Assembly (NCBI GenBank): GCA_019694165.1 | Contig: JAIBCL010000014.1 | Coordinates: 62,001 to 126,000, forward strand | Direction of reading: 5' to 3' | Length of the DNA: 64,000 nt | Source: Verrucomicrobiaceae bacterium | GTDB lineage: Bacteria; Verrucomicrobiota; Verrucomicrobiia; Verrucomicrobiales; Verrucomicrobiaceae | Shown: positions 48,078 to 56,708 of the stretch, in pieces | How the letters are laid out: each line of letters begins with the position of its first letter | How positions within the stretch are numbered: the first letter of the stretch is position 1 | Made by a program: the position numbers and the translations under genes | The notes under the pieces: model-generated | Told to the model about the DNA's origin: nothing | What the model saw: the letters and a program-made list of their open reading frames with translations, nothing else | Databases searched by the model: none

Positions 48078-51000
48078 ATGGTAAACGCTCCCGACCGTTT
48101 CGTGCCGCATGACCGCCAGATGCGCGTTTTCGTCAGCAGTACGTTCCGTGACATGCACGCGGAGCGGAACCACCTGGTGAAATTCATTTTCCCGCAGCTT
48201 CGCAAACTTTGCGAGTCACGTGGCGTGATGTGGGGCGAGGTCGATTTGCGCTGGGGCGTGACCGATGAAGAAGCCGCGGACGGCAAAGTGCTGCCGATCT
48301 GCCTGGAGGAAATCAAGCGCTGCCGTCCCTACTTCATCGGCATCCTCGGCGAACGTTACGGCTGGGTGCCGGAGTCGGTTTCCGTCGATCTTCTCGAACG
48401 AGAGTCGTGGCTGCAAAAGCAGCTTGCGGACAAGAAGTCCGTCACGGAATTGGAAATCGTCCACGGCGTGCTGCGCAATGCGCGGATGCATCAGCATGCG
48501 TGCTTTTACTTTCGCGATCCGAAGTTCGTGGAAAGCATGCCCAAGGACCGGAAGGCGGATTTCATGGCCGAGAGCCCGCAGCACGCCGAGCGGCTGGCGC
48601 GGCTCAAGTGCGAAATCCGCCGCGCGAGCCACCAACGGTTTTGCCGGCTGCGCGAGCCGTTCGCCAGCGCCGAGGAGCTGGGCCGCTGGGTGCTGGACGA
48701 TGTCACCGCCATCATCAACGACTGCTGGCCCGAAGGCTCGCAACCCGATCCGCTCGACCGCGAGGACGCGGCCCATCAAAACCACGCACGGAATCTTCGG
48801 ATGGGATTTGTCGGGCGTCTCGACGCGCTGAAGGAATTGAACGCATTCGGCGCGTCGGGCGGCGAGCCGCGCATCGTCTCCGGCGAGTGCGGAGCTGGAA
48901 AATCAGCCTTGCTCGCGACATGGGCACAAGAATGGCGTGCCAGCCACAAGGACGATGTCGTCATCGATCACTACGTCGGCGCCACGCCGGAGAGTTCCAA
49001 CTGGCGCGGGCTGGCAAGAAGGATTCTCGGTGAGCTGAAGCGCGCATTCTCGATGCCTGAGATTCTGCCGGAGAAGGATGAAGATTTGCGCGATGCCCTC
49101 GAGACCTGGCTGGCCAGGACCAGCGGACTCAATACCGTGGTGCTCGTACTCGACGCGCTCGATCAACTCTCTGAAGACGGCCAGGTCCCGGAAATCGGCT
49201 GGCTGCCCACCCAATTCCCCGCAAACGTCCGGCTGATCATATCCGCACAGCCTGGCAGCATGCTGGACGCCTTGCGCGACCGCCAGTGGGCCGAGCTGCC
49301 GCTTCCTCCGCTTCCGCAGCCGGAGATTGTGAGCGCGGCGATCTCCTATTTCGAATTCTTCGGCAAGCGACCTCCCTCGCAACTCCTGAGTCTGCTGGAA
49401 TCCACGCCAACGGCCGGCAACGCGCTCTATCTCCGCGCGGTCCTTGATGAACTGCGCCAGTTCGGCAGTCACGAAGATCTCACGGCGCGCGCCGCCTACT
49501 ACCTTGCGGCGTCGGATCTGCCGCAACTGTTCGAGCGCATTCTCACGAGGTGGGATGGCGACTTCGGACGCGATCCGCACTATCCGGACCTGGTGCGCCG
49601 CTCGCTGTGCTTGATCTCCTCGTCACGATCGGGGCTGCTGGAGAACGAGCTGCTGCTCCTGCTCGGCAAAGACGGCGAGCCTCTACCCCGTCGCACATGG
49701 ACGCCCCTGTTCCTGGCGATGGAACGCGCCCTGTCGTTGCACGAAGGATTGGCGGGAATCGGGCAGGAGCATTTCCGGGCCGCAATTCGCACGCGCTGGC
49801 TGCAGGACTCCAGCGCAGCGCGTGCTTTCCGCGAGGAACTTGCATCGTTCTTCAACCGGTCGGAGGATCCGGGCGATCGTGATCTCGACGTGCTGCCGTG
49901 GCTGCTCTTGAAGCTGGAGAACTGGGCCGAGGCGAGAAACCTCCTGACGAGAATCCCTGTCTTTCTGCGCCTGAGCAAGGCACGCACTGACGACCTGCTG
50001 GCCCACTGGCGGCTGCTCGGCCGGCATTTCAACCCCGCGGAGCACTACGAGGAGGCGCTGCAAAGCTGGATTGCCGCAGCGGCTCCTGGTCCGAACGAGA
50101 TTGCGGCCGCGCTCCGTTCGCTGGCCGGGTTCCATTCTTCACGTGACGAGACGAAACCTCAGGAGTCGCTGCTTCGGCGCGCCCTCGCCATCGACGAACA
50201 GCGCCTCGCGAACCACGACAAAGGCGCAGTCGCGGACGTGCTCGACGACAGCAGCTCGCTCGCGTTTCTGCTTGGGCACACGCACCGGCCCGAGGAGGCG
50301 GAGTCACTGCATCGGCGCGCGCTCAAACTCGCCGAGGACACTTTCGGCCCCGATTCAGAAAAGGCGATGAATCATGTGGAGGGTCTTGCGGCGTGGCTCT
50401 CGATGACCCGGCGATACGCGGAGGCGGAGGATTTGATTCAGCGCGCATTGGAGCGCTGCCGTCGCACCGAAGGCGAACATTCCGCCCGGGCGGTTTCCAT
50501 GCTCTCGATGCTCGGCCAGACGATGAAGGAGTCCGGCCGGCTGGCCGAAGCGGAAAAGGTCCTCCGCGAAGCCCTGGCCATCTGTGAAAGGACTCTCGAT
50601 GGATTCTCGGTTCTGCGCAGCAGTTGCATGAATCTGCTGGCCGGCCTTCTGTTTGAAACGGGAAGATTCTCGGAAGCCGAGCCGCTGATGCGCAAGACCC
50701 TGGAACTGGCGATCCACGACTTCGGAGAGCGGCACACGAGGGTTGCCACGGAACTCAACAATCTCGCCTTGCTGCTTGCCGCGAGCGACCGGGCTGCGCT
50801 CGCGCGGCCCCTGATGAAGGAATCCGCGCACATTCTCGCCGCCTTCACCCGCGCCAATGAGCACACCCACCTGAAGTTCCCCAACACGCTCGACGCCTAC
50901 GTCGGCGTTCTTTTCTCCTGCGGACTGCGGGGCGATGAGGTCGTGACCGAGATCAAGGCCATGGTGCCTGAGCTTTTTCCCGCCACCACCCATGGTGCCG

Positions 51001-53390
51001 GCGGCTTTTGCGCGCGGCATTGGATACTGCCGGCCATCGCCTGCGGCGACGCTTTTGCGCGACGCGACGAACACGAGGTCGCCAGATCTCTTTATCAGTG
51101 GGCGCTCGAAGGCTCGCGCCATTTGTTCGGAACCGATCATCCAGATTCACGCGATATCCTCCACCGGCTCGGAGGAGCCCTCTTTGGCTCGGGGAACTTT
51201 GCCGCGGCTGCAGCGCTCCTGCGCGAAATGCTGGCCGATTATCAGCAGCGCTTCGGACCCGATCATCCAGCCACGCTCGAAGTGATGCAAAACCTGGGTG
51301 GAGCGCTCATCGAGCTTGGTGAATTTTCGGAAGCCGAAAAATTGCTGCGCGCTGCCCTCGCGACGAGAGACCGCCTGGGAGAGATGGACTCGCGTGATGC
51401 GCTGACCATTCAGGGCAATCTGGCTGAACTCTGCCGCAGGAAAGGCGATCTCGAGGAAGCGGAGACGCTGTCAATCCGCGTGCTCGAACTCGCACGGCAG
51501 ATATCCCACCCAAATCTGGACTCCTTCGCTGACAACTATATCAACATGCTGGGCCGGCGTGGCATGTGCCAGGACGACATCCTCCGGCAGCTCCGGCGGC
51601 TCGTGCCCGACCTGATGGCCAGGCGCGGCCACTCCACTGCCGAAGAGAACCGCGCCTTTGAGCAGACCTACGGCCTCATTGCTGCCGCCGAGCAGCACCG
51701 GTCCACCGGCGATCTGACCGGCGCGCTACGGATTTTCAGGGAGGCGTATCAGGCGCGATTGAGAATCGCCAACGAACAACCCAGCCAGATCCACCAGTTC
51801 CATGGCGGGGCCGCTTTTGCGTTGATGCGCGTCGGTGAACTGCAGCGACAGATGGGGGACGATGGCGCGGCATCGGCTTCGTTCCGGGAAGCGCTGGAAA
51901 AGTTCGAGACAATCCTCTCCGCCAAGCCTGACGACGCTCCGTGCCTCTCAAACGTTGCCGCACTCTACGAGAGGATGGGCGATCTGGAACTGGACAAAGG
52001 GAACACCGCCAGCGCCGTGGAAAACTATCGCGCGGGCCTTGCCGCCGACGAGCGTCTCGCCGCCGTGCAGCCCGACAGTGCGCAAACTCGGCGCATGATC
52101 CTGGTCACTCGTGAGCGGCTCGGCGCCGCCCACATGTGCCGTGGTGATGAACTGGCGGGCACGGGACATGCCGAAGATGCGCTTCACAGCTATCGGCAGG
52201 GCCTCACCGAAAAACAGATGCGCAGTGAAGCAACAGATGACGAGGATGACCGGAACGATTTTCTCGCGTCGCTCAGGCGCGTGGTTGATTTTGCATCCAC
52301 AACGCCGTTCGCCGAGCAACAGCCGGGCGTGGCTTTCGATTTGGGCCGGCTGGCGATGTCGGTGCTCCATGCCGGCCATCTCGATGAAGCAGAGTGCCTG
52401 TTCCGCCGCGCTCTCGCATCGCACGAGCACCGGCACGGCGCATTCCATCCCGATGTAGGCAGGGCGCTCGACAACCTCGGCATGGCGCTCCTCAGCAAAG
52501 GCCGTGCAGCGGATGCCGAACCGCTGGTGCGCCGGGCTCTCGAAATCTTCGAGACGCGTCACTTCCACCTCCGCGGTGATTTGGCCGCCTGCCTGGACAA
52601 CCTCGCCTCCATCCTGCAAACGGAGGGGCGCTTCGACGAAGCCGAGACCGTGGCGCGGCGGGCGCTAGCGATATGGGAGGCTGCCTTGGGATCGGAGCAT
52701 CCCGATGTAGCCGTCTGCCTTGAAAATCTGGCGGCCCTGCTCAGAAAGAGCGGGCGTGCGGCGGAGGCAGTGCCGCTTCTCTCGCGCGTCTTCTCCATCC
52801 GCAAAGTGGCGTTCGGATGGCAGCATCCAAAGACGCTCCAGCCCCTTCAGACCTGCATCATGCTGCGCGAGTCACTCGGACACGACCGGGACGAAATCCG
52901 CCGGTTTCTCTGCGAATTGGCGCCCGAATTGGCTGAACTCGCGCGCCAGAGTGATCAGGCCGTCGCCGAAAGCGAAGCACTCGACCATCGAAATGACTCC
53001 CCACCGCAGATGACGCCGATGAGCCGCTCGACGGCGGCCGCTGCGCCCGCCACTCTGCCTCCGCCTCCGCCGCAGCCATCATCAACCGACGACCTGCGCG
53101 AGATGGCCGAACGCGCCTTTCACAAGTGCCAGTGGGAAGGCGCGGAGACCATGTACGGCCAGCTTGTCGAACGCGACGGCTCGCTCATTGCCGGCATCGG
53201 TCCCAAGATCGCCTCGTGCATCCTGTCAGCACACTCCAAACTCAGCGACTTCGACCGGCGGAAACTCGAACTCCTCACGCAACGTCTCGACCAGGCAGGA
53301 TGTGCCGAAATCGCGGACGACATCCGTCGGCAGATCGAGGAACGGGAGGCCATGAGTCAACCGAAGAAGCCGTGGTGGAAGGTCTGGTAG
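48078..53390 (+). CDS. DUF4062 - STAND NTPase - TPR protein
   Basis: The protein of 1,770 residues has three parts. Residues 15-110 form a DUF4062 domain (MRVFVSSTFRDMHAERNHLV, GEVDLRWGV, FIGILGERYGWVP). Residues 240-480 form a P-loop STAND NTPase: Walker A GECGAGKS at 269-276, and Walker B around Asp359 with the following DQL (VVLVLDALDQL). A winged-helix-like segment with SGLLENELLLLLG follows. From about residue 690 to 1600 there are many TPRs of the kinesin-light-chain type, with EAEPLxRRALEI and FGPDHP..T patterns. A Pro-rich linker and final repeat end in KKPWWKVW. The architecture resembles nephrocystin-3 and TEP1-like proteins. STAND NTPases act as inducible switches that oligomerise after ligand binding by their repeats. 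The N-terminal domain would be the effector or signalling part. A defence role is inferred. Confidence 0.9.
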   Translation: MVNAPDRFVPHDRQMRVFVSSTFRDMHAERNHLVKFIFPQLRKLCESRGVMWGEVDLRWGVTDEEAADGKVLPICLEEIKRCRPYFIGILGERYGWVPESVSVDLLERESWLQKQLADKKSVTELEIVHGVLRNARMHQHACFYFRDPKFVESMPKDRKADFMAESPQHAERLARLKCEIRRASHQRFCRLREPFASAEELGRWVLDDVTAIINDCWPEGSQPDPLDREDAAHQNHARNLRMGFVGRLDALKELNAFGASGGEPRIVSGECGAGKSALLATWAQEWRASHKDDVVIDHYVGATPESSNWRGLARRILGELKRAFSMPEILPEKDEDLRDALETWLARTSGLNTVVLVLDALDQLSEDGQVPEIGWLPTQFPANVRLIISAQPGSMLDALRDRQWAELPLPPLPQPEIVSAAISYFEFFGKRPPSQLLSLLESTPTAGNALYLRAVLDELRQFGSHEDLTARAAYYLAASDLPQLFERILTRWDGDFGRDPHYPDLVRRSLCLISSSRSGLLENELLLLLGKDGEPLPRRTWTPLFLAMERALSLHEGLAGIGQEHFRAAIRTRWLQDSSAARAFREELASFFNRSEDPGDRDLDVLPWLLLKLENWAEARNLLTRIPVFLRLSKARTDDLLAHWRLLGRHFNPAEHYEEALQSWIAAAAPGPNEIAAALRSLAGFHSSRDETKPQESLLRRALAIDEQRLANHDKGAVADVLDDSSSLAFLLGHTHRPEEAESLHRRALKLAEDTFGPDSEKAMNHVEGLAAWLSMTRRYAEAEDLIQRALERCRRTEGEHSARAVSMLSMLGQTMKESGRLAEAEKVLREALAICERTLDGFSVLRSSCMNLLAGLLFETGRFSEAEPLMRKTLELAIHDFGERHTRVATELNNLALLLAASDRAALARPLMKESAHILAAFTRANEHTHLKFPNTLDAYVGVLFSCGLRGDEVVTEIKAMVPELFPATTHGAGGFCARHWILPAIACGDAFARRDEHEVARSLYQWALEGSRHLFGTDHPDSRDILHRLGGALFGSGNFAAAAALLREMLADYQQRFGPDHPATLEVMQNLGGALIELGEFSEAEKLLRAALATRDRLGEMDSRDALTIQGNLAELCRRKGDLEEAETLSIRVLELARQISHPNLDSFADNYINMLGRRGMCQDDILRQLRRLVPDLMARRGHSTAEENRAFEQTYGLIAAAEQHRSTGDLTGALRIFREAYQARLRIANEQPSQIHQFHGGAAFALMRVGELQRQMGDDGAASASFREALEKFETILSAKPDDAPCLSNVAALYERMGDLELDKGNTASAVENYRAGLAADERLAAVQPDSAQTRRMILVTRERLGAAHMCRGDELAGTGHAEDALHSYRQGLTEKQMRSEATDDEDDRNDFLASLRRVVDFASTTPFAEQQPGVAFDLGRLAMSVLHAGHLDEAECLFRRALASHEHRHGAFHPDVGRALDNLGMALLSKGRAADAEPLVRRALEIFETRHFHLRGDLAACLDNLASILQTEGRFDEAETVARRALAIWEAALGSEHPDVAVCLENLAALLRKSGRAAEAVPLLSRVFSIRKVAFGWQHPKTLQPLQTCIMLRESLGHDRDEIRRFLCELAPELAELARQSDQAVAESEALDHRNDSPPQMTPMSRSTAAAAPATLPPPPPQPSSTDDLREMAERAFHKCQWEGAETMYGQLVERDGSLIAGIGPKIASCILSAHSKLSDFDRRKLELLTQRLDQAGCAEIADDIRRQIEEREAMSQPKKPWWKVW

Positions 53391-53490: not shown

Positions 53491-54969
53491 ATGGCCGGTT
53501 GGCCCGATGACCAGCAGGACTTCATTCTCCATTCCCGGCCGGTACAGCGCAGCCCGGATTCCGATGTGACTGCGACCTACGCCAGCCCCGCCGTGCGCCA
53601 GCGCCTCACCGAGTTCCTCGGCGGGGATACGCTGGATCATGCCACGGCGGTTTACATCACCCGCACCGACGGCTGCGGATTCGACCGGCGCGACCTGCGC
53701 CCTCCAGCCGAGTTGGACTGGTATCTCGATCGCGATCTCGACATCGCCCGCTCGCTCGCGGACTCGGCTTCGCTGCTGATGCATCTGGATCTCGAGTACG
53801 TGAACTTTGACTCACCGGCGGAGGCGTTTGTCGATCCGTGGCGGACCTTCGATCTTCAAGAACCCGCCGTGCGCGTGATCGAGACGCTGCTGCTCGAGTG
53901 GGGCATCCGGCCGCTGCACATCGTCACGGGCCAGGGGCACCACTTCGTGTGGCGCGTGGCGCGCACATCGCCGGTCGCAAAACACATGGCCTCTCTTTCA
54001 CCCGCTCCGGAGCTGGTGGATGCATGCCAGATCCGCATGCCGCCCATTCTGGCGGGCCGCATCGACCGCGACACGCACGGCGCGTTCGCCGCGCTCTCGC
54101 TCATCATGGAATTCGTCGCGCACCGCGTGAAGGAGCTGGCCGCGCCGCTCTGCGCGCTGCCGGTCGAGGTCACGGCCGTGCACGTCGGCCCGTGCGTGTC
54201 GCGGCAGCGTGAGATGATCTCCATCGACATCTCCGAGTACGGCGATCCGCTGCAGACGCGCATGATCCGCGCGCCGTTCACCAATTACCTGAAGCCGTGG
54301 GTCACCGGACTCGCGCGCTCGCTCGGAGTCGAGGGCGAGATTCCCACCTTTCCTGCGATCCCGCTGCACGAGATGGACATCCGCCAGGCGATCACGCTGC
54401 GGCAGGTCGAGGGAGAGGTGCATGATCTCGCGCGCCGCGCCTGCGTGCGCATCCCGGAGCAAAACGACGGCACGGCGCGGCTGATGGAAGCCTATCTCGC
54501 GTCACGGCTGCGGCGGTTTCACGAGTTCTACTACTCGGCGCGTCACGACGCGAAGGATCGATGGCCCGATACCTACGCACGCACGCCGCTCGATCCGCTG
54601 CCGCCGTGTGTGCATCGCGTTCTGGAGTGGCCAAACGATCTGCTGCTCAAGCCGGCGGGCATCCAGCTTGTCACCCGCACTTTGCTGGCCGCGGGCTGGC
54701 ATCCACGCCACATCGCGGGCCTCATCCGCTCGAAGTTCGAAGACGCCGGCCATCACTGGGGCGTCAGTTGGGACGACTATGAGCCGGCCACGCGCGCGGA
54801 CTTCTACACACGCCTCTTCGCCGGCCTCCATCTCACCGGCCTCGACAAGCTCGTCGATTTCAACTGCACCTCGAACCGCGAAAAAGGCTTCTGTTTCCCG
54901 CCGCCAGATGCCATGTGCAGCCTCGAACCCGCGCGGCACGCGCTTCTCTCCAAACTTCCCCATGTCTGA
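53491..54969 (+). CDS. Archaeo-eukaryotic primase (AEP)-like protein
   Basis: The protein of 492 residues is preceded by GGAGG nine bases before the ATG, a good ribosome-binding site that decides the start. Three motifs fit the AEP catalytic pattern: LMHLDLEYVN (Asp100 and Glu102, motif I DxE), HIVTGQGHHFVWRV (His150 and His151, motif II) and MISIDIS (Asp246, motif III), followed by RMIRAPFTNY. The C-terminal half has a helical region, VHRVLEWPNDLLLKPAGIQL, like a primase C-terminal helical domain, and a cysteine-containing tail. AEP enzymes make primers or fill gaps in DNA. The overall similarity to named families is weak, so this is a motif-based call. It overlaps the next gene by eight bases. 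Confidence 0.55.
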   Translation: MAGWPDDQQDFILHSRPVQRSPDSDVTATYASPAVRQRLTEFLGGDTLDHATAVYITRTDGCGFDRRDLRPPAELDWYLDRDLDIARSLADSASLLMHLDLEYVNFDSPAEAFVDPWRTFDLQEPAVRVIETLLLEWGIRPLHIVTGQGHHFVWRVARTSPVAKHMASLSPAPELVDACQIRMPPILAGRIDRDTHGAFAALSLIMEFVAHRVKELAAPLCALPVEVTAVHVGPCVSRQREMISIDISEYGDPLQTRMIRAPFTNYLKPWVTGLARSLGVEGEIPTFPAIPLHEMDIRQAITLRQVEGEVHDLARRACVRIPEQNDGTARLMEAYLASRLRRFHEFYYSARHDAKDRWPDTYARTPLDPLPPCVHRVLEWPNDLLLKPAGIQLVTRTLLAAGWHPRHIAGLIRSKFEDAGHHWGVSWDDYEPATRADFYTRLFAGLHLTGLDKLVDFNCTSNREKGFCFPPPDAMCSLEPARHALLSKLPHV

Positions 54970-55847: not shown

Positions 55848-56708
55848 ATGACCGAGAACCAGCAGATCGCAGGCAGTCTCGAAGAAGTGTCGCGCATCCT
55901 CGCCGAGCAGGGCGCGAACCGCTTCCGTGTGCAGGCCTACGTTCACGCCGCCGATGCGCTGCGCGCCATGGCGGAGCCCGCCTCGCTCGTGCTCGAGCGC
56001 GAGGGGCTCGACGGCCTGGAGAAAATCCCCGGCGTCGGCGACACGATCGCACATGTAATCCGCGACATCATCCAGCACGGACGCTCCGCCATGCTCGACC
56101 GCCTGCGCGGCGAGAGCGATCCCATCGCCTTGCTCTCGTCCGTGCCCGGCATCGGGAAGAACACCGCGTGGAAGCTGCACGATGAACTCGGCATCGAGAC
56201 GCTCCAGGAACTCGAAGCCGCCGCGCACGACGGACGCCTCGCCTCCCTCTTCGGCTTCGGCCCGAAAAAACTCGCCGGCATCCGTGACACGCTCGCGCAG
56301 CGCCTCGGCCGCCTGCGCCAACCGCCGCCCCGGCCCTCGAACGAGCCGTCGATCGCCGAAATCCTCGACGTGGACCGCCAGTACCGCGACGACGCCCGCG
56401 CCGGCAAGATCAAGCTCGTCGCACCCAGACGCTTCAATCCCACCGGCGAGGCCTGGCTCCCCGTCATGCACACCACGCGCGGCCCGCGACACTACACCGC
56501 GCTCTTCTCAAACACCGCCCGCGCCCACGAACTCGGCACCACGAACGACTGGGTCGTCCTCTACTACGACGGCGACAAAACCGAGCGCCAATGCACCGTC
56601 ATCACCTCCACCTTCGGCCCCCTCAAAGGCCGCCGCATCGTCCGCGGCCGCGAAGGCGAGTGCGCGATGTTTTACGACGAGACGACTGGCCATGACGAGG
56701 ACGACTGA
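55848..56708 (+). CDS. Helix-hairpin-helix protein related to the N-terminus of PolX
   Basis: The protein of 286 residues starts MTENQQIAGSLEEVSRILAE. The first 170 residues resemble the N-terminal helical region of DNA polymerase X: GANRFRVQAYVHAADALRAM, then two helix-hairpin-helix motifs, LEKIPGVGDTIAHVIRDI and LSSVPGIGKNTAWKLHDELG, then FGFGPKKLAGI. The nucleotidyltransferase palm and PHP domains of PolX are missing. The C-terminal 100 residues (from about NPTGEAWLPVMHTTRGPRHY to FYDETT) are not recognised. A structure-specific DNA-binding role is likely. It follows the TIM-barrel gene by 46 bases and closes the operon. Confidence 0.8.
   Translation: MTENQQIAGSLEEVSRILAEQGANRFRVQAYVHAADALRAMAEPASLVLEREGLDGLEKIPGVGDTIAHVIRDIIQHGRSAMLDRLRGESDPIALLSSVPGIGKNTAWKLHDELGIETLQELEAAAHDGRLASLFGFGPKKLAGIRDTLAQRLGRLRQPPPRPSNEPSIAEILDVDRQYRDDARAGKIKLVAPRRFNPTGEAWLPVMHTTRGPRHYTALFSNTARAHELGTTNDWVVLYYDGDKTERQCTVITSTFGPLKGRRIVRGREGECAMFYDETTGHDEDD

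Follow-up and report, generated by a model that had tools for sequence, protein, structure and literature searches.

Enzymes of the AEP superfamily are defined by three motifs, hhhDhD/E (motif I), sxH (motif II) and hD/E (motif III) (PMC4538821). In mycobacteria the AEP enzyme Prim-PolC and endonuclease IV (EndoIV) act in one reconstituted excision-repair reaction, and EndoIV was the best end-processing partner (PMC5663958). The EndoIV superfamily also includes the phosphodiesterase CbiR (PMC7733943). Some primases carry a further helical domain, either the Fe-S domain of the primase large subunit (PriL), which is nearly exclusive to archaeal and eukaryotic replicative primases, or PriCT, which is nearly exclusive to mobile-element primases, and these two domains have been argued to be homologous (PMC5862659). 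PolpTN2 of the Thermococcus nautili plasmid pTN2 has an AEP domain fused to a four-cysteine PriL-like domain in a plasmid-borne, archaeal protein of 923 aa with additional domains (PMC3973330), and is not known to have an EndoIV-like partner.

Here we describe a locus in which a bacterial AEP gene with a PriL-like C-terminus is followed by a gene for an EndoIV-like protein. The locus lies in a 64,000-nucleotide stretch of DNA from a Verrucomicrobiaceae bacterium, which we call the window. A reading made from the sequence only had proposed that a hypothetical gene of the window hides a divergent primase-polymerase, and we recovered that ORF with exactly the same coordinates, on the + strand and with a length of 492 aa. 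The features of the locus are collected in Table 1.

Table 1. Features of the AEP locus, in positions of the window (residue numbers refer to the 492-aa AEP protein)
Feature	Position	Strand	Remarks
NACHT-TPR gene, 1770 aa: DUF4062, NACHT ATPase and long TPR array	48078-53390	+	directly upstream of the AEP gene
AEP-type primase-polymerase gene	53491..54969	+	492 aa; end coordinate includes the stop; alternative start GTG 53566
AEP catalytic domain, about residues 30-320	53578..54450	+	AlphaFold2 model; VIA-align rows over model residues 18-338
Motif I, HLDLEY (98-103)	53782..53799	+	candidate metal ligands D100, E102; identical in 40/40
Motif II, TGQGHHFVW (146-154)	53926..53952	+	sxH with H151; identical in 40/40; aligns with SGGH/AGGH of remote relatives
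Motif III, REMISIDISEYGDP (240-253)	54208..54249	+	candidate metal ligand D246; followed by R260-x-P262-F
C-terminal helical domain (322-492)	54454..54966	+	resembles the 4Fe-4S domain of the primase large subunit
C373, candidate cluster ligand 1	54607..54609	+	40/40
C459, candidate cluster ligand 2	54865..54867	+	40/40
C468, candidate cluster ligand 3	54892..54894	+	40/40
C476, candidate cluster ligand 4	54916..54918	+	36/40
Partner gene, EndoIV/CbiR-type TIM barrel (AP_endonuc_2), 279 aa	54962..55801	+	PF01261 E 5.8e-40
Third gene, helix-hairpin-helix protein like the PolX N-terminus	55848..56708	+	HHH_8 E 2e-15; PRK08609 over residues 3-146

The AEP gene may in fact begin at GTG 53566 instead of ATG 53491, because residues 1-26 nearly all have a pLDDT below 50 in the AlphaFold2 model and most relatives start near residue 26 of the 492-aa protein. 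Inspection of the sequence also revealed GGAGG nine bases 5' of ATG 53491, which speaks for the ATG.

Searched on its own, the AEP protein passed no curated threshold in Pfam, NCBIfam, PHROGs or PADLOC and matched no PDB sequence. A single scan of genome contigs found relatives at 53 loci, with identities of 47-73%, and all of these came from Verrucomicrobiota MAGs or genomes except one, L022, a MAG labelled Planctomycetaceae whose AEP is 64% identical. Such a scan of all genome contigs reaches close relatives, not relatives of 20-30% identity in other phyla; remote relatives were sought within Verrucomicrobiota. We found the gene in 16 of 38 genomes near the window genome, with the sole sister genome of the genus in that set lacking it, and in 10 of 387 genomes sampled across the phylum when remote members were included, usually as a single copy. 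The relatives farthest from it, L070 and L071 from another family of the phylum, share 22% identity with it across an alignment of 336 columns (hhalign 99.2%, E 1e-19). Thus the AEP protein belongs to a real, conserved Verrucomicrobiota family. This supports the proposal of an uncharacterised AEP lineage in Verrucomicrobia, with the single Planctomycetaceae-labelled MAG as the exception. A literature search of incomplete coverage found no earlier description of the family, and an earlier mention is possible. In L070 two convergent copies of the remote relative, about 50% identical to each other and without the C-terminal cysteines, were observed at L070:1-1140 (+) and L070:1471-2784 (-), neither with an adjoining TIM-barrel partner.

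We compared the catalytic region with the AEP motif definitions in an alignment of 40 members with identity as low as 46%. HLDLEY at residues 98-103 and MISIDIS at 242-248 lie where the sequence-only reading had placed them, and the two adjacent histidines that it had noted within 143-154 are H150-H151 of motif II. LLMHLDLE fits hhhDhD/E, G149-H150-H151 fits sxH and the hydrophobic residue before D246 fits hD/E, so that the assignment of these segments to motifs I-III agrees with all three definitions. D100, E102, H150, H151, R240, S244, D246, S248, Y250, D252, R260 and P262 were unchanged in 40/40 members. At 22% identity, L070 and L071 retain D-x-E, GGH and INIDNSW...RSIRSPFS at the equivalent places. 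Since the catalytic residues are identical throughout the alignment and kept in remote relatives, the AEP active site is under selection. With this conservation, the motif residues are not chance matches.

The full-length protein was modelled with AlphaFold2 using the 40-sequence alignment (pLDDT 90.6, pTM 0.91), and the motif residues fall within or at the edge of the confident core strands 94-105, 149-157 and 241-246. The top PDB match by Foldseek was M. smegmatis Prim-PolC, with a probability of 1.00 at an E of only 2e-3. VIA-align against Prim-PolC 6sa0 gave Z 16.8 and rmsd 4.1 over 258 aligned residues; other Z values were about 15 for the LigD polymerase, 12.8 for CAPP, 10-12 for eukaryotic and archaeal PriS, 9.2 for S-2L PrimPol and 8.8 for RepB'. 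All of the best 50 VIA-align rows (50/50) were AEP enzymes or complex chains of one. Among viral folds in BFVD one match had E <0.001 (a 723-aa protein), but with TM-scores <=0.25 and rmsd 15.6, and we drew nothing from it. The AEP RRM-like fold, on which the assignment had been staked beforehand, is therefore present in the model. Taking the motifs and the predicted fold together, we conclude that the ORF encodes a member of the AEP superfamily.

The structural likeness to Prim-PolC and LigD does not extend to a shared sequence family. Prim-PolC, the LigC-associated enzyme of M. smegmatis (6sa0/6sa1/5op0), is the best structural match and has similar motifs I-III, but it is only about 15% identical to the AEP protein, comes from a different phylum, and has the LigC ligase as its operon partner where the AEP gene has an EndoIV-like protein. 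To our knowledge, Prim-PolC has no cysteine-bearing PriL-like domain. The LigD polymerase (TIGR02778) shares the fold, the D-x-D, G-x-H-type and hD motifs and, by eye, a D-x-S...R-x-P-[FY]-[ST] pattern after motif III. However, TIGR02778 (ligD_pol) matched none of the 40 AEP members, and hhalign against five verrucomicrobial LigD polymerases gave a probability of 0.1 with no sequence similarity. TIGR02778 also had no match anywhere in the window genome, which has no LigD polymerase. Across 61 loci we found no operon or fusion with an ATP-dependent ligase, the TIM barrel being the sole consistent neighbor. By sequence, then, the AEP protein falls outside the LigD/Prim-PolC family, but it may work in a similar way. 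Those verrucomicrobial genomes that have a LigD polymerase encode it as a separate gene, and in the stand-alone LigD-type polymerases L072-L077 we observed that Gln replaces His in motif II (TSGSKG[ML]Q), a departure from the canonical sxH.

The C-terminal part is helical in the predicted model, in line with what the sequence-only reading had stated. Modelled separately, residues 322-492 reached pLDDT 93.5 and pTM 0.89. The top four VIA-align rows for this region were eukaryotic PriL Fe-S domains, at Z 5.7, 5.0, 5.0 and 4.5, followed by RepB' at 3.4 and then noise, and Z values of this size prove little by themselves for a likeness to PriL. Foldseek against PriL was weak (E 2.9). The Pfam family PF04104 (DNA_primase_lrg) matched three members from different branches in one profile register (E 0.0013, 0.0042 and 0.024), the best at 18.5 bits versus a gathering score of 22.4. 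Other weak hits, to a Bacteroides lipoprotein (5fq6) and to Terminase_5, were taken as chance or short helical resemblance.

Because the fold rows and the single-register PF04104 matches come together with four conserved cysteines, the C-terminal domain is likely homologous to PriL/PriCT. These cysteines probably hold an Fe-S (or Zn) site. The domain resembles the PriL C-terminal 4Fe-4S domain (PF04104; 6du0, 3q36, 5f0q) in being helical, in its four cysteines and in its top fold rows, but differs from it in being bacterial and in sharing one chain with the catalytic domain. Its cysteine spacing, 373-459-468-476, is presumably tighter at the end than that of human PriL. The cysteines are absent from L068, L070 and L071, which keep the helical C-terminal region. 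The C-terminus had been called PriCT-type in the sequence-only reading, which mentioned neither the cysteines nor the partner gene. What holds of that description is the kinship, since PriL Fe-S domains have been argued to be homologs of PriCT (see above); a plain PriCT is disfavored by the four conserved cysteines, and neither PriCT-1 nor PriCT-2 gave a Pfam match in any of the 40 members.

We found that the partner ORF and the AEP gene share 8 nt and that a partner lies directly downstream of AEP in 60 of 61 loci, the remaining contig ending inside the AEP gene. The two genes co-occur in exactly the same 16 of the 38 relatives, and G007 has two copies of each. In L022 they form one uninterrupted reading frame, although sequencing error may have removed a stop in what is only one MAG. 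The pair is also retained in L068, from another family of the class. In another class-level relative, with a 2.3-Mb genome (L069:1198-3550), both genes of the pair have shifted or truncated frames, and this copy is possibly decaying. AEP and partner form a two-gene, apparently translationally coupled operon.

The partner shares the TIM barrel and nine metal-ligand positions with EndoIV (Nfo, TIGR00587) and CbiR (NF041277) but scores well under both curated cut-offs: 63.2 bits against 105 for CbiR, its best NCBIfam match, and 41.6 bits against 129.65 for EndoIV, the next best. Its substrate may therefore not be DNA. The partner also matched sugar epimerases. H68, H110, E152, D183, H186, H208, D217, H219 and E248 were invariant in 22/22 sequences. 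Eight of these positions align with M. tuberculosis EndoIV (5zhz) and E248 was assigned by position; we take the nine to correspond to the metal ligands of E. coli EndoIV. The D-x-H ligands D217 and H219 are absent from the epimerases in the alignments listed. On these matches the partner is a member of the EndoIV/CbiR superfamily and neither equivalog. It is the only EndoIV match in the window genome, in which we found no canonical EndoIV. At phylum level, more remote TIM barrels (L086-L090) were seen beside unrelated genes without AEP upstream and were read as paralogs. In L087-L089, and in part in L086, the barrel sits between isocitrate-dehydrogenase-like and small lipoprotein-like genes in 2.2-2.5-Mb genomes; the L087-L089 barrels appear to be another uncharacterised EndoIV/CbiR-type subfamily.

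Apart from the TIM barrel, no neighbor cluster recurs in more than 12 of the 61 loci. We rejected a conserved operon of more than two genes, the histidine kinase, response regulator, Usp and cation-ATPase neighbors being confined to sub-branches. The third gene is linked to the pair only in the nearest relatives (L011, L013 and L029); its product is without a polymerase or PHP domain and has an additional C-terminal part. The NACHT-TPR protein upstream is of the STAND-type NTPase, nephrocystin-3-like kind, and its gene is not common to the AEP loci of relatives. No ligase or glycosylase was linked to AEP across the 61 loci, which leaves a repair pathway incomplete on paper.

On balance we lean toward a chromosomal repair pair, in which the EndoIV-like enzyme prepares damaged ends and AEP fills the gap; the mycobacterial reaction with Prim-PolC and EndoIV is its closest precedent (PMC5663958). 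The EndoIV-like enzyme would open or clean the damaged site, an abasic site or a blocked 3' end, and the PriL-like domain would hold AEP on the template and the end, possibly a 5' end. AEP would then fill a short gap or synthesise a short primer; D100, E102 and D246 would serve two-metal catalysis, and H151 would bind the incoming nucleotide. More tentatively, the pair could be an undescribed bacterial repair system in which a PriL-like Fe-S AEP and a dedicated EndoIV-like enzyme stand in for canonical EndoIV and LigD and make up a compact excision-and-fill, or lesion-bypass, unit in Verrucomicrobiota. The main rival is repriming during replication, which we regard as unlikely: AEP would act at stalled forks as a damage-tolerance primase that lays a primer downstream of the lesion, its PriL-like domain would initiate, and the EndoIV-like enzyme would remove or process the lesion or the primer end. 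De novo primases such as PolpTN2, RepB' and pRN1 combine an AEP domain with a PriL/PriCT-like one (PMC5862659, PMC3973330), and the fold matches include CAPP, RepB' and PriS. However, the closest folds belong to the gap-filling and NHEJ group (Prim-PolC, LigD) and not to plasmid primases, and no helicase is fused or linked.

Two other roles are less likely than repriming. The best NCBIfam match of the partner, CbiR, together with the epimerase matches would agree with an AEP fold re-used for non-DNA nucleotidyl transfer, for example to a cofactor or RNA, beside a small-molecule phosphodiesterase. We consider this very improbable, since AEP retains all polymerase motifs and a domain of the PriL kind, which is known to function in nucleic-acid synthesis, and since D217/H219 place the partner on the phosphodiesterase branch. 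Hardly more probable is an anti-phage or mobile-element function for a pair that moves between loci. The pair is patchy, as its presence in 16 of 38 relatives and its absence from the one sister genome of the genus illustrate, its neighbors beyond the TIM barrel vary by locus, and its upstream neighbor in the window is a NACHT-TPR gene. The latter is not a shared neighbor, however, the pair is usually single copy, and no PADLOC or PHROG relative was found, which leaves patchiness as the only support for a defense role. By tblastn, phages gave chance-level matches (E about 0.7) and plasmids no AEP relative; scanning of viral contigs found none, and L070 likewise had no phage or plasmid relatives. 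In these searches AEP gave no sign of mobility in phages, plasmids or viral contigs, unlike the mobile-element primases of the PolpTN2 or PrimPol-PV1 kind.

Our data describe a chromosomal bacterial AEP that combines a fold of the Prim-PolC/LigD group with a cysteine-bearing PriL-like domain and so fits neither the replicative nor the mobile-element class of primases. The fixed pairing with an EndoIV-like protein suggests a self-contained repair route, probably a DNA repair pair of Verrucomicrobia that has so far gone undescribed. If so, abasic-site processing would be tied to AEP gap filling by operon structure, a link that we otherwise know only from mycobacterial biochemistry. The pairing thereby offers a testable function for two unnamed protein families.
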